Below are positions 38,390 through 42,971 of a stretch of DNA of 58,860 nt, one piece after another. The notes below the pieces were generated by a model that had not been told where the DNA came from, searched no databases, and saw only the letters and a program-made list of their open reading frames with translations. Numbering within the stretch: the stretch's first letter is position 1; the number at the start of each line of letters is the position of its first letter. The stretch is from Planctomycetota bacterium (lineage in GTDB: Bacteria; Planctomycetota; Planctomycetia; Gemmatales; Gemmataceae): positions 1 through 58,860 of the forward strand of contig JACPPF010000116.1 in the NCBI GenBank assembly GCA_016191165.1, given 5' to 3'. Made by a program: the position numbers and the translations under genes.

Positions 38390-38749
38390 ATGTTGACTTT
38401 CGGCAAACAAGATCGCCTGCGTTCGCCCGCGGATTTCAAACGCGTTTACGAACGCAAGTGTTCGGTCAGCAACTCCTGGCTGATCGTCTATGGCCTCGGG
38501 AACGGCCTGGGCCGACTGAGGCTAGGCCTGTCGGTGTCGCGCAAGATCGGCAACGCGGTCGCACGCAATCGGTTCAAACGGCTGTACCGCGAAGCGTTTC
38601 GGCTCACCCGCGCGGAGTTGCCGACCGGGCTCGACCTCATCCTGCTGCCGAAATCCTCGCGCCAGCCAACGCTGGATCAGGTTTGCCAATCACTGCGAAC
38701 GCTGGTTCCGGCACTGATCCGGCGTTTGAAAAGCCTGGAAAAGAAATGA
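38390..38749 (+). CDS. rnpA: Ribonuclease P protein component
   Basis: 119 aa. The motif [28 protein letters not shown] is diagnostic; the RNR box that contacts the RNA subunit lies at [14 protein letters not shown]. It helps the RNA subunit cut precursor tRNA. Usually rpmH (ribosomal protein L34) stands directly upstream; here the J-domain gene does, seven bases before. The yidD start overlaps its stop. Confidence 0.94.
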
Positions 38750-38991
38750 TGCTTGGCAACATCATGCAAGTTTTGAGTAGATTCCTCGCCTTCGTGCTGA
38801 TCTTGCCCGTTCGTTTTTACCAGATCGTACTCGGCCCGATGTTGCCGAAGGTGTGCCGATACCATCCCAGTTGCAGTGAATACTTCATCGAAGCCGTGCA
38901 AAAACACGGGCCGTGCGTTGGATGCGCCAAGGGCGTCTGGCGCATCTGCCGGTGTGGGCCGTGGACGCGCGGGGGGTATGATCCGCCGTGA
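38746..38991 (+). CDS. yidD: Membrane protein insertion efficiency factor YidD
   Basis: 81 aa, with an ATGA overlap with rnpA (38746-38749). The family core is complete: [33 protein letters not shown], then [19 protein letters not shown]. An amphipathic helix at the start places it on the inner membrane, where it assists YidC. yidC is not adjacent. It ends one base before the convergent PIN gene. Confidence 0.94.
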
Positions 38992-38992
38992 G

Positions 38993-39529
38993 TCATGGCC
39001 GCAATCGGCGCCTCTTTTGGGCGGGGGCTCCTTTTTCGAGCCATTCGACGGCTTTCTCGTCCTCGTTAACCGGATTGACCCAGGATACGTTTCGTAATGA
39101 TACGACGCTGGCAGCCAATCCCGATAAATGACCCCGAACGGTGTCGTCAAGTGACGCAACGCGAGAATCGCCTGCGAGGGCGGCCTCGATGAGATGACAG
39201 TCCTTGAGAACGATGGCGGCAATCTCCCCGGACTCGCACCTTGTGGCGATTTCGTTTCGCAAGTCTGCTGATTCATTTACTTGGAGATCGCGAACCTTAC
39301 CCATGCTCTCCATCGCGGTACGCCATTGCATCGCAAAGATTGACCGATGCTTGTCCCATTCTGCTTTGATGGACTCAGTCCACGCCATCCGATGACAAAC
39401 GCTCCGAACGCTCAGCAAGAAATCGCGGCACAAAACTCCCGTAGGATGTTGCGATTCCATCGAACCGGCCGCACGCGCAATGGAAGCGTCAATTACCAAA
39501 CAAAACGTTGGAGTCCTTTTCTTGCTCAT
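38993..39529 (-). CDS. PIN-like nuclease of an ATPase/PIN module
   Basis: 178 aa from ATG 39529, which overlaps the ATPase stop (39526-39528), a coupled pair. The frame extends upstream to 39610 inside the ATPase gene, but the overlap start is the natural one. Acidic residues are placed as in PIN nucleases: D14 in CLVIDASIARA, E52 or E57 in WTESIKAEW, D110 with H112 and E115 in IVLKDCHLIEAAL, and D121/D128 in GDSRVASLDDTVR. An RNA- or DNA-cutting role is inferred. The Lys/Arg-rich C-terminal end (QKRRRLRP) could contact nucleic acid. No known antitoxin stands beside it; the partner is the ATPase. Confidence 0.7.
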   Translation of the reverse strand: MSKKRTPTFCLVIDASIARAAGSMESQHPTGVLCRDFLLSVRSVCHRMAWTESIKAEWDKHRSIFAMQWRTAMESMGKVRDLQVNESADLRNEIATRCESGEIAAIVLKDCHLIEAALAGDSRVASLDDTVRGHLSGLAASVVSLRNVSWVNPVNEDEKAVEWLEKGAPAQKRRRLRP

Positions 39530-40881
39530 CGGGCGACCCGGTGCTTTTCCGCCGCATTCAGGTAATTCGCCTGGGCCTGCAACGTAACATCGTCGAAATC
39601 CTCCGGCCAATCGCCAAAGCGCCCAGCGTCATCAAGTTCAGCGGTCGTAATGTTGGTTTCGCCGTCGTCATTGCGGTGGAACCAGTGCAAAGCCACCGTG
39701 TCGGGCGAGAGCTTATGCTCTGCGACGAGTGACTGAATGCCAAGCAACAAAAGTGAACTGTGCGTTTCGACGACGACCTTCACGCCACGATTGGCCGCAT
39801 TTGCCAGGAGTTGCGCCATCGCGATTTGGGCGCGTGGGTGGAGATGGATCTCGGGTTGCTCGAGAAAGACGAGCTGTCCAGGTTCCGCAACGAGTAGAGC
39901 GACCACCACGGGTAACGTTTGCGAGACGCCGAAGCCAACGTCGGCGATGTTGACGAGATCCTTGCCACCGCCAACTTGGGGTTGGGTCAAGCGGCCGACT
40001 CGCAATTCCACTTGGGTGTCATCGATTGGTAGGGCCTCCACTTTCCACGTTAAGCTTAGATTTCTAAGGTCACTGCTCAATTGCTCCAGCTTCTCCGAAT
40101 GTTCGTCGGTCTTCCAACTCGCTATTATGCTCGCGGTATAGACTTCGAATTTGCCTGCAAACCTTTTGCCTACCGCGGTGACTGGGTAGTTTCGTTCCGG
40201 GTTTCCTCGATGCCCGGGAAGGTGGATGACCTCCTGAATGCAATGGGTATGTGGGAAAACTCGAGACAAAATTGGCTTGCGATCAAATATGCGAGCTTCT
40301 TGCCATTCCGGGGAATTTCCGACTCCAATAATGTCGAAAAAGCATCGGACCCGCTCAACTTCGGTTTTTATTGTAGTTTGAGGATAATTTTGCTGGAAAG
40401 CCGATTCCAGTACCTTGTAAACTTCGTTGAAAACGTCGGGCCAACTGTTGGGTGTAATTTCAAACGGCCCACCCCACGAATCGAATGTCATTTTCGCGAG
40501 TGCAAATTGCTTTTTGTTTGCGCGGGAAATCTCAAGGCCTAGCTTTCCAACGCCTTCCGTATTTAGGCCGAACCGGAGGACTTGCCGGCTTTGTGTCTTG
40601 GAAATACACGTGGTCATCTGGTCAAACGAAGTGAACCTCACATTCGGCCCATCCAACTTTAGCGGCCCCGGATCGTAGGTCGCCTCCAGCGTCTGCTTGA
40701 GCAACAACAGCGGTTGGATCATGCTCGACTTGCCGGAACTGTTGGCCCCGGCTAATACCGTGAGCGGACGGATTTCAATGGTCTGTTCGCGCGCGATCGA
40801 CTTGAAGCCCCCAACGGTTAGGTGCGTGATACCCTGCGGAGCTTGGTCGCCTTTCGTTTTTTTTCCGTTCGACTTCGCCAT
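39526..40881 (-). CDS. ABC/SMC-like ATPase (AAA_21 / DUF3696 type)
   Basis: 451 aa. Walker A GANSSGKSS is at residues 45-53, in the opening ITHLTVGGFKSIAREQTIEIRPLTVLAG. Walker B with catalytic Glu is LVFLEQPEIHLHPRAQ (337-352), and the switch His is in VVVETHSSLLLLGIQ. The C-terminus GRFGDWPEDFDD is typical of DUF3696. Such ATPases, called OLD-like or AAA15/21, sense phage or DNA damage and pair with nucleases in defence systems such as Septu, Gabija and PARIS. Here the partner is a PIN domain, not HNH, UvrD or a Toprim/DUF4435. Codon use appears less G+C-rich than in neighbours, which suggests horizontal transfer. Confidence 0.85.
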   Translation of the reverse strand: MAKSNGKKTKGDQAPQGITHLTVGGFKSIAREQTIEIRPLTVLAGANSSGKSSMIQPLLLLKQTLEATYDPGPLKLDGPNVRFTSFDQMTTCISKTQSRQVLRFGLNTEGVGKLGLEISRANKKQFALAKMTFDSWGGPFEITPNSWPDVFNEVYKVLESAFQQNYPQTTIKTEVERVRCFFDIIGVGNSPEWQEARIFDRKPILSRVFPHTHCIQEVIHLPGHRGNPERNYPVTAVGKRFAGKFEVYTASIIASWKTDEHSEKLEQLSSDLRNLSLTWKVEALPIDDTQVELRVGRLTQPQVGGGKDLVNIADVGFGVSQTLPVVVALLVAEPGQLVFLEQPEIHLHPRAQIAMAQLLANAANRGVKVVVETHSSLLLLGIQSLVAEHKLSPDTVALHWFHRNDDGETNITTAELDDAGRFGDWPEDFDDVTLQAQANYLNAAEKHRVAR

Positions 40882-40920
40882 TGCTTGGCCCCTTTGTCCT
40901 TCGTTGCCGCTTACCGGGCC

Positions 40921-42078
40921 TCAATACGGAAAATGCGGCGTCCGATCGAAAACGTTGCGTGGCCGCAGGTCGAAGCCGGACCAGGCGACCGGGGTGGTGC
41001 CGACGAAGTTGCCCTTGCGGAATTCGCCATCTTCGGAGCGCGGCTCGTGATGGCAGGCAGAACTGTGCCAGATGACCACGTCGGCGTTCATGATTTTCTC
41101 GCCATTCTTGACGTATTCCTGCACCTTGGGGTAATACCATTCGTCCTTGCGGTTGACGGTGACCCAGAAGTCGTGGTGCGTGCATTCCTCCTTTTCGCCA
41201 TAATGCCGGGCGTTCCCCATGCGCCAGGGGACGAGGTCGTAGGAGATCGGCATCTTGCGGATGTTCTTCCTGGTTTCGTTGGTGATATTCAGCGTGGTGA
41301 AGCGCTCGGCGTTCCAGTCCTCAAAGCCTTCCTTTCCCTTGTTGAAAGGCCGAATGATGGTCGATGCCTTGCCCGCCAGCTTTGGGGTCTCGATATGCTC
41401 TTTCACGTATACGGAATTGTTCTTGGGTCCATCGAGGTTGACATCGACGCGCCACAGGCCATTGTGCATGTGCCCCTCGAACTCGCGCGTGGAATAGTTG
41501 CGCCCTGTCGAGCCGACGCGGAAGGTGATCGCGCCATCATCGTGGAAGCCGTACTCGATGAGGTAGCGATAGTTGGCGGCATCGAGGCAGCCCCAGAGGA
41601 GGAGCTTTTCGCCGCGGCGCACGCCGGTGTCGGTATCGACCCACATGACGCCGCGGTCCTTGACTTCCTTCACGACGACGGGCGGTTTGCCCAGGAGCGT
41701 GCCGTCGCGTCCGGCGGCGGCCTTGTTGAGCGTGATGAGCGAGAAGTTGTAGGACACATCCCAGAAGCGCGGGCTGCCGGAATGATAGGGCACGAACATC
41801 TCGCTCAAGCGCGCATCGCCCAGCACCTGCATCCAGGGCTCCTTCGGGCCTCGCTTGAACCAGGCGTTCTGAATCGTCAGTCCAAATCCGCTGGAGGTGG
41901 CCCAGCGAACCGCCCATGCCGTCTTCATGCCGCCCGCCGTGGGGAAGGTCTGGATGATCTCGTTGGGCGGCGGCGCCGGCGCCTTCTTCTGGACCTCTGA
42001 CTCCGGCGCGGCCGCGAAGCCGGTCAGGGCCATGACAACGCCCATCAGCATTAACACAACGATTCGCGCGATGGTCAT
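40921..42078 (-). CDS. Copper-amine-oxidase-like secreted protein
   Basis: 385 aa. ATG 42078 is chosen because it opens a signal peptide (VLMLMGVVMALTGFAAA). The rest follows the catalytic domain of copper amine oxidases: SEMFVPYHSG with FWDVSYNF (D107 in the place of the catalytic Asp), AANYRYLIEYGF (Y170 at the topaquinone position), GHMHNGLWRVDVNLDG (H203, H205 as copper ligands), HHDFWVTV, and HHEPRSEDGE...TPVAWSGFDLRPRNVFDRTP (H343 or H344 as third ligand). The usual N-terminal domains are missing and the T-x-x-N-Y-D/E box is altered to D-A-A-N-Y-R. It may oxidise amines at the cell surface or be an inactive relative. Confidence 0.75.
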   Translation of the reverse strand: MTIARIVVLMLMGVVMALTGFAAAPESEVQKKAPAPPPNEIIQTFPTAGGMKTAWAVRWATSSGFGLTIQNAWFKRGPKEPWMQVLGDARLSEMFVPYHSGSPRFWDVSYNFSLITLNKAAAGRDGTLLGKPPVVVKEVKDRGVMWVDTDTGVRRGEKLLLWGCLDAANYRYLIEYGFHDDGAITFRVGSTGRNYSTREFEGHMHNGLWRVDVNLDGPKNNSVYVKEHIETPKLAGKASTIIRPFNKGKEGFEDWNAERFTTLNITNETRKNIRKMPISYDLVPWRMGNARHYGEKEECTHHDFWVTVNRKDEWYYPKVQEYVKNGEKIMNADVVIWHSSACHHEPRSEDGEFRKGNFVGTTPVAWSGFDLRPRNVFDRTPHFPY

Positions 42079-42098
42079 TCCGATTCTCCGCCAATGGT

Positions 42099-42971
42099 TT
42101 AGCCGCTCGCCTTCGGTGAGCGGGTTTTGCACAAGGATTCAAGCGCCCAATCGGGCCGGTCAAGCGAATCAATTCGCGCCGAAATCGTCCGCACGGATTG
42201 CCTGCTCGCCGCCGCGTGCCCGGCGTAACCGAGCAGCATCGGCAGCATGGTCAACGTGAAAACCACCCACAGCACGATGGCCAGCCCGAACGCGTGAATC
42301 CATTGATAACGCAGGATCAGCCACAAAGTCACAAACCACACGCTGAAATGGCCGAGGTTGAAGAACAGATTCCAAAACAGCCGAGAGCTGCGAAATCGCG
42401 TCGGCAGCCCGGTCGGCCCGTCCTGCGGAGATTCGAGCATTTCCCAGCCGTCTTTGCTTCTGAAACGCCGGTGGCCGCCGTCATCGGTCTCCTCATAGTC
42501 AAAGCGGATCGTCGTGCCGTCGTCCTTTTCGATCTCGATGGCGATGACGTTCTGCCCCTGCCAGAGTCGCGGCTTGATCGAGGTGTCCTGATAATGATAG
42601 CGCGTTGGACCATCGCGTTTGCTGACGTAGCGGATTTTTTCGCCATCCTTGCGTTCCTGTCCCTTCTTGCTGCTGGATTTGACGGCCCAGATGCGCGGCG
42701 CGGGGCGTGAGAGCATGTCCTCGGTTGGATTGAAGCGAATGATCGTGTCATACGGCAGGCTCTGCGGACTGGCGCCCGGCGTCGTTGCCAGTGTGACACA
42801 CCAGACCATGTAACCGGACGTCAACACGGCCGCGGCAACCGGCGCTTGCCAGTAGATATTGGGCGACGGCTCGAGGTAGATGTAGCCCTGGAAGTAATAG
42901 GTTCCCCCCCAGAGCACGACCGTCAGCAGGATGCCCGCGACGATCAGGATCAGGAACAGGGTGAGCACCAT
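42099..42971 (-). CDS. Membrane protein with four helices and a soluble loop
   Basis: 290 aa. ATG 42971 opens the first helix (VLTLFLILIVAGILLTVVLW). A second helix near residue 45 (PVAAAVLTSGYMVWCVTLA) leads into a polar loop of about 120 residues (KDGEKIRYVSKRDGPTRYHYQDTS, DDGTTIRFDYEETDDGGHRRF). Two more helices follow (WNLFFNLGHFSVWFVTLWLIL, WIHAFGLAIVLWVVFTLTMLPMLL). No family is recognised. It precedes the amine-oxidase-like gene by 20 bases, so they are probably cotranscribed. Confidence 0.75.
   Translation of the reverse strand: MVLTLFLILIVAGILLTVVLWGGTYYFQGYIYLEPSPNIYWQAPVAAAVLTSGYMVWCVTLATTPGASPQSLPYDTIIRFNPTEDMLSRPAPRIWAVKSSSKKGQERKDGEKIRYVSKRDGPTRYHYQDTSIKPRLWQGQNVIAIEIEKDDGTTIRFDYEETDDGGHRRFRSKDGWEMLESPQDGPTGLPTRFRSSRLFWNLFFNLGHFSVWFVTLWLILRYQWIHAFGLAIVLWVVFTLTMLPMLLGYAGHAAASRQSVRTISARIDSLDRPDWALESLCKTRSPKASG

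Follow-up and report, generated by a model that had tools for sequence, protein, structure and literature searches.

A two-gene unit of an ABC/SMC-like ATPase and a predicted PIN nuclease in a planctomycete: a candidate phage-defence module

Two genes at the locus and their proteins

The window (the whole stretch of 58,860 nucleotides analysed here) carries two adjacent genes between flanks that lie outside the proposed system (Table 1). The first-pass annotation had described two open reading frames with an ATGA overlap, less rich in G+C than their surroundings. The sequence bears out both frames and the overlap on the minus strand, and the composition agrees as well. More precisely, the pair has a GC content of 0.539 and the remaining window one of 0.611 (z = -4.1 relative to 29 non-overlapping stretches), and only one of 1140 sliding windows of the pair's length has a lower value. 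Likewise, GC3 is 0.58-0.61 in the pair and 0.70-0.83 in the neighbours. The overlap would imply translational coupling of the two genes.

Table 1. Positions of the pair, its borders and its flanking genes in the window
Feature	Position	Strand	Remarks
ABC/SMC-like ATPase, 451 aa (P0002)	39526..40881	-	DUF3696/NsnB-HEC-03B group; first gene of the pair
PIN-fold nuclease (predicted), 178 aa (P0001)	38993..39529	-	Second gene; overlaps the ATPase gene by ATGA
ATGA stop/start overlap	39526..39529	-	ATPase stop and PIN start, read from the sequence
Inserted unit	38992..40920	.	Between the ends of yidD and the PmoA-like gene; empty site in same-genus L094, L095 and L096
yidD	38740..38991	+	Left flank of the insertion, outside the system; Pfam YidD 2.5e-26
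PmoA/copper-amine-oxidase-domain-like gene	40921..42132	-	Right flank, outside the system; Pfam Cu_amine_oxid 6.8e-27

The ATPase presents all the features of the ABC/SMC-type DUF3696 group. It has a Walker A motif (GANSSGKS, residues 45-52), an ABC signature (DVGFGVSQ, 314-321), a Walker B region (VFLEQPEIHLHP, 338-349), a switch histidine (H374, in ETHS) and a DUF3696 C-terminus. The Pfam match to DUF3696, at residues 391-429, scores 22.6 bits, barely above the cut-off of 22. Pfam also finds AAA_21 (2e-22) and AAA_15 (5.5e-20), and the motifs are near-invariant among relatives. The PADLOC models that match are NsnB (2.1e-62), PDC-M55A (1.6e-41), HEC-03B (3.1e-40) and the AriA models (9e-24). 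The first three, NsnB being a component of Menshen, match all 39 of the 39 ATPases tested. These profile matches place the ATPase in the NsnB/HEC-03B group. Its AlphaFold2 (AF2) model (pLDDT 85.5) matches SMC and Rad50 heads in a structure search, with Z up to 21 (about 19-21). Among defence proteins, it resembles PtuA of Septu and type I-A retrons (Z 17-19).

The first-pass annotation had read a Walker A, a Walker B with glutamate, a switch histidine and a DUF3696-type C-terminus. The motifs stand, but the catalytic glutamate does not. The Walker B region ends in E-Q-P-E, with glutamine at the usual position of the catalytic glutamate in 37 of the 39 ATPases. In the aligned HEC-03 and Nsn relatives, the same position is occupied by glutamine, asparagine, serine or histidine. 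This substitution suggests slow or absent hydrolysis, with a switch that would be run by ATP binding.

The second protein was proposed to be PIN-like, and its predicted fold and acidic residues agree. The AF2 model, built with 58 relatives, has a pLDDT of 96.3. PIN proteins make up most of its structural matches, the best having a Z of 9.3 and an rmsd of 3.1 across 128 residues. They include VapC toxins, the HARP protein-only RNase P, Nob1, SMG6 and Nmd4. Searches against Pfam (its PIN families included), PADLOC and NCBIfam returned no match for P0001. A sequence search of the PDB gave no useful match, and tblastn against plasmids and phages gave none.

Four of the acidic residues named in the first-pass annotation, D14 (83 of 84 relatives), E57 (80/84), D110 (84/84) and D128 (82 Asp and one Glu among 83), are near-invariant. 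D121 is conserved in 75 of 84. E52, which had been named as an alternative to E57, falls outside the conserved columns of the alignment, and E57 is the conserved glutamate. A lack of conservation of the acidic residues, which had been named as a point against the proposed system, did not occur in these 84 relatives. D14, E57, D110 and D128 form the predicted four-acid PIN active site. PIN enzymes are mostly RNases. DNA cutting by proteins of this fold may also occur.

Linkage, spread and mobility of the pair

A search of the phylum with P0001 found seven relatives beyond the window genome. Six adjoin an ATPase; the last, a PIN fragment, has none beside it. The PIN alignment is too divergent for locus scans, and an ATPase alignment was used in its place. 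The query was an alignment of the six PIN-linked ATPases, with ATPase peptides only and the PIN protein not part of it. We took the best 80 relatives, which are 46-53% identical to the window ATPase. In 76 of these 80, from about 20 phyla of bacteria and archaea, a gene of the PIN family lies directly downstream on the same strand; since the seeds were PIN-linked, the 80 represent ATPases closely related to PIN-linked ones. Of the remaining four, L010, L065 and L074 are cut at contig ends. The co-occurrence proposed as a check in the first-pass annotation is found almost throughout. Only L071 truly lacks the PIN gene. More distant DUF3696 ATPases pair with other partners.

The linked genes are closely packed, with a possible overlap in 55 of the 76 pairs and a start within 20 bases in 20 more. 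No third conserved neighbour is present beside the pair among the loci of the relatives. The pairwise distances of PIN and ATPase proteins correlate (r = 0.72, 71 non-redundant pairs), and the best of 2000 permutations reached 0.25. The ATPase/PIN pair is a real unit with correlated evolution.

A few loci depart from the usual arrangement. In L071 (6001-7332), from an Oscillatoriaceae cyanobacterium, the ATPase lies in its usual context and no PIN gene follows it. C-terminal PIN fragments that lack the D14 region and an ATPase are found at L137 (1489-1722) and L008 (1480-1821; L008/L143). The L137 fragment shares 59% identity with the window PIN across 56 residues. These fragments are probably remnants of decayed copies. 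In a Latescibacteria genome (G417, L083 7248-8013), the PIN gene is in two pieces about 180 bases apart, and this copy seems broken. Two other Latescibacteria loci (L075 8154-9254 and L086 8346-9674) have a second, distantly related ATPase shortly after the pair.

The distribution is very patchy. The pair is present in one of seven genomes of the window's genus; the PIN gene was sought in the six congeners and none was found. It occurs in 6 of 95 genomes of the family (one of them with a PIN fragment), which fall in 5 of its 39 genera, and in 8 of 392 genomes of the phylum. In Cyanobacteriota, the phylum of locus L020, it occurs in 11 of 292 genomes. All 30 genomes examined have a single copy, split in one of them.

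In three same-genus genomes (L094, L095 and L096), yidD and the PmoA-like gene converge directly, only a short spacer separates them, and the pair is absent. The PmoA-like gene itself is 71-76% identical to its counterparts in same-genus genomes. Together with the low GC, the empty site looks like a clean insertion of exactly two genes, which is the simplest reading. We found no direct repeats of at least 6 bases at the insertion borders. Another congener (G427, L093 1-1427) has a tyrosinase-like gene in two frames beside the PmoA-like gene, where the congeners have yidD or the pair. Judged from the genomic sequences, the pair appears to move horizontally as a self-contained two-gene unit.

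We also scanned viral contigs, which are IMG/VR predictions, with the ATPase alignment. The ATPase is present on 12 of them, at 35-45% identity. The PIN gene is visible in 11, and the twelfth contig ends inside the locus. All viral PIN copies keep D14, E57, D110 and D128. A terminase profile matched 6 of the 12 contigs; this single profile missed half of them, including two with the pair beside terminase genes, and so is no test against their phage nature. By DNA similarity, the pair stands shortly before a Geobacillus-phage-like terminase in L159, and before phi105-like terminase, portal and capsid genes in L166. In L090, it is near a tape-measure gene.

Another of the 12 contigs, L165, is a P2-like prophage of Klebsiella in which the pair sits between the gene for a tail fibre and another tail gene. 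The same site in the related phage ST16-OXA48phi5.4 (Peduoviridae; L237 3948-5851) holds a DUF262 gene and a hypothetical gene, which makes it a candidate variable cargo site. P2-like phages carry defence genes in variable loci or hotspots (PMC9122126). The tail-fibre/tail site of L165 differs from the cos-proximal hotspot of that work. Carriage by prophages supports a role of the pair in phage conflict.

The nearest neighbours of the pair are mostly housekeeping genes. Proximity to known defence genes had been proposed as a further check, and no enrichment above random loci was seen. Among the matches listed, PADLOC finds about 10 in 226 proteins near the pair and about 5 in 110 at random loci in 20 of the genomes that carry it; with these approximate counts, the enrichment is not clear.

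Relation to catalogued systems

HEC-03 is the nearest in kind. It joins a DUF3696 ATPase with a PIN-like protein, so this kind of pair is already catalogued as a candidate in PADLOC. The PIN nature of HEC-03A is read from motifs and not from a fold. As in the window, the DUF3696-group ATPase comes before an adjacent PIN-like protein of about 175 residues, and the order is the same on plasmids. The ATPase motifs are also alike, with GANS(S/A)GKS and, in most, EQPEIHLHP. However, the PIN families differ. HEC-03A has the pattern VIDTNV ... EY ... DRKF ... A(A/T)D, and its model does not match P0001; it matched one of 59 relatives, at E 0.021. A profile-profile comparison of the window PIN with HEC-03A gives a probability of 3%. 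The HEC-03B model scores 3.1e-40 on the window ATPase, weaker than NsnB, and 7e-134 on a plasmid HEC-03B. In a tree of three groups, rooted on four long-branched NsnB rows, the window-type and HEC-03 ATPases form separate, well-supported groups. We dropped the idea that the ATPase/PIN arrangement was ancestral to both pairs, as the root depends on these four rows only.

One planctomycete genome (G166) has both kinds, a window-type pair (L004, contig 267) and a HEC-03 pair (L152, contig 268). Related plasmid loci are complete Menshen operons or HEC-03. On plasmids, HEC-03 is often accompanied by a gene of the RNA ligase family. Such a gene follows the HEC-03 pair in L144 (5901-6602), L153 (4540-5232), L154 (4495-5187) and L155 (4573-5172), which are Aeromonas, Azotobacter, Tistrella and Rhodococcus plasmids. 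This would fit an RNA-cutting effector with a repair partner.

Menshen consists of NsnA (DUF262), NsnB (ATPase) and NsnC (OLD-like), and among the PADLOC models NsnB scores best on the window ATPase. Nevertheless, that score falls short of the 1.4e-121 reached on NsnB of a complete Menshen plasmid locus (L147, with NsnA at 1.9e-120 and NsnC at 4.4e-85). Unlike Menshen, the pair has no adjacent DUF262 or NsnC gene, a PIN protein takes the place of the effector, and the flanks are yidD and the PmoA-like gene. The NsnC model does not match P0001 in PADLOC. The PADLOC candidate PDC-M55 has an ATPase model that matches the window protein. However, its partner PDC-M55B is a model of 315 positions, whereas the window PIN has 178 residues and no PADLOC model matched it. 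The PDC-M55B model (PDLC04708) has no match in the window genome, and it matched in no control either.

Septu, the PtuAB of type I-A retrons and PARIS (AriAB) also combine an ABC ATPase with a small nuclease. Their effectors are HNH (PtuB) in Septu and Toprim (AriB) in PARIS, in contrast to the PIN fold of the window partner. An HNH, Toprim or UvrD-like partner, as in Septu, PARIS or Gabija, is absent. VapC and other PIN RNases share the fold and the four-acid active site with P0001. However, VapC is partnered by a small VapB antitoxin, and P0001 by an ABC ATPase; P0001 has no match to a Pfam PIN family. A small DNA-binding antitoxin gene of the VapBC type is absent next to the PIN gene, and the ATPase is the sole conserved neighbour.

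PIN RNases have been validated as phage-defence effectors in DS-3 and DS-5 of DefensePredictor (PMC13092281). DS-3 consists of a single split-PIN protein, and DS-5 of a PIN with a DUF5830/AcrIF4-like protein; unlike the window pair, neither is described with an ABC ATPase partner (PMC13092281).

The first-pass annotation had called the pair a candidate undescribed defence system. None of the named systems in the libraries searched corresponds to the two genes together. The word "undescribed" is too strong, with HEC-03 listed. Our literature search found no description of the pair in open papers, and an earlier account may exist in the guilt-by-embedding work behind HEC and PDC. Given a PIN protein unlike HEC-03A and ATPases in separate groups, the pair would be a different variant of the same kind and not a member of HEC-03 or Menshen.

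Proposed function and its alternatives

We propose, with a probability of about 0.6, that the pair is a self-contained, horizontally moving two-gene phage-defence module, in which the ATPase would act as sensor and clamp and the PIN protein as effector RNase. It is probably a variant of the ATPase/PIN kind that works by RNase-based abortive defence. The linkage, the patchy spread, the empty site with its deviant GC and the prophage carriage speak for it, as do parallels elsewhere. In PARIS (PMC12409363) and Septu (PMC13096335), similar ATPase partners govern nucleases that cut tRNA, and PIN RNases serve as defence effectors in other systems.

The ATP-bound ATPase dimer would bind the PIN nuclease and hold it inactive. 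A trigger induced by the phage would alter or release the ATPase, and the PIN protein would be freed or assembled. It would then cut an essential RNA, most likely tRNA or mRNA. Translation and phage growth would stop, and the cell would become dormant or die. We infer the physical complex, the inhibition held by ATP, the trigger, the RNA substrate and the abortive outcome.

A fuller version of this proposal is tentative, and we rate it at somewhat less than even odds. Here the pair would be a defence system in its own right, widespread and carried by prophages. Its SMC-like ATPase, with the Glu-to-Gln change, would clamp a PIN RNase belonging to a new family, stay locked by ATP and be released by a phage trigger. 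With HEC-03, it would belong to a larger uncharacterised ATPase/PIN class of bacteria, archaea and phages.

The strongest of the alternatives, although unlikely, is a toxin-antitoxin-like module. Here the PIN protein would act as an RNase toxin like VapC, with the ATPase as antitoxin, in a selfish or stress-response unit that maintains itself and does not sense phage. The loci examined contain no full-length PIN gene without the ATPase, yet L071 has the ATPase without PIN. Likewise, the lone remnants (L008/L143 and L137) are C-terminal pieces that lack D14, and the best matches of the PIN model include VapC toxins. However, the ATPase belongs to a group known from defence systems and, to our knowledge, an ABC ATPase of 451 residues would be unusual as a type II antitoxin. 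The two readings also overlap, as many such modules defend against phage.

Less likely again is interference directed at DNA, where the ATPase would scan DNA like SMC and Rad50 heads, and the PIN protein would nick or cut the invader. Such heads are the best matches of the ATPase model, and the related protein GajA acts as a DNA nickase in Gabija (PMC10568477). Nevertheless, the window ATPase has no long coiled coil, and the best matches of the PIN model (VapC, HARP RNase P, Nob1 and SMG6) are RNA enzymes.

A role in housekeeping RNA processing or repair, with no link to phage, would fit the mostly housekeeping neighbours and the single context kept in some cyanobacteria, but it is very improbable given the patchy occurrence, the foreign composition, the empty sites in congeners and the carriage by prophages.

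The pair has a wide reach: it occurs across about 20 phyla of bacteria and archaea, and also in prophages related to Bacillus/Geobacillus phages and to P2-like enterobacterial phages. PADLOC, Pfam and NCBIfam hold no model for its nuclease and would flag the ATPase at best. The prophage-borne two-gene pairs are compact examples open to direct testing. The conserved change from glutamate to glutamine gives a testable statement on whether ATP binding or hydrolysis drives such systems. More generally, the comparison indicates that one ATPase chassis, the DUF3696/NsnB group, is combined with different effectors: two PIN families and the NsnC of Menshen.
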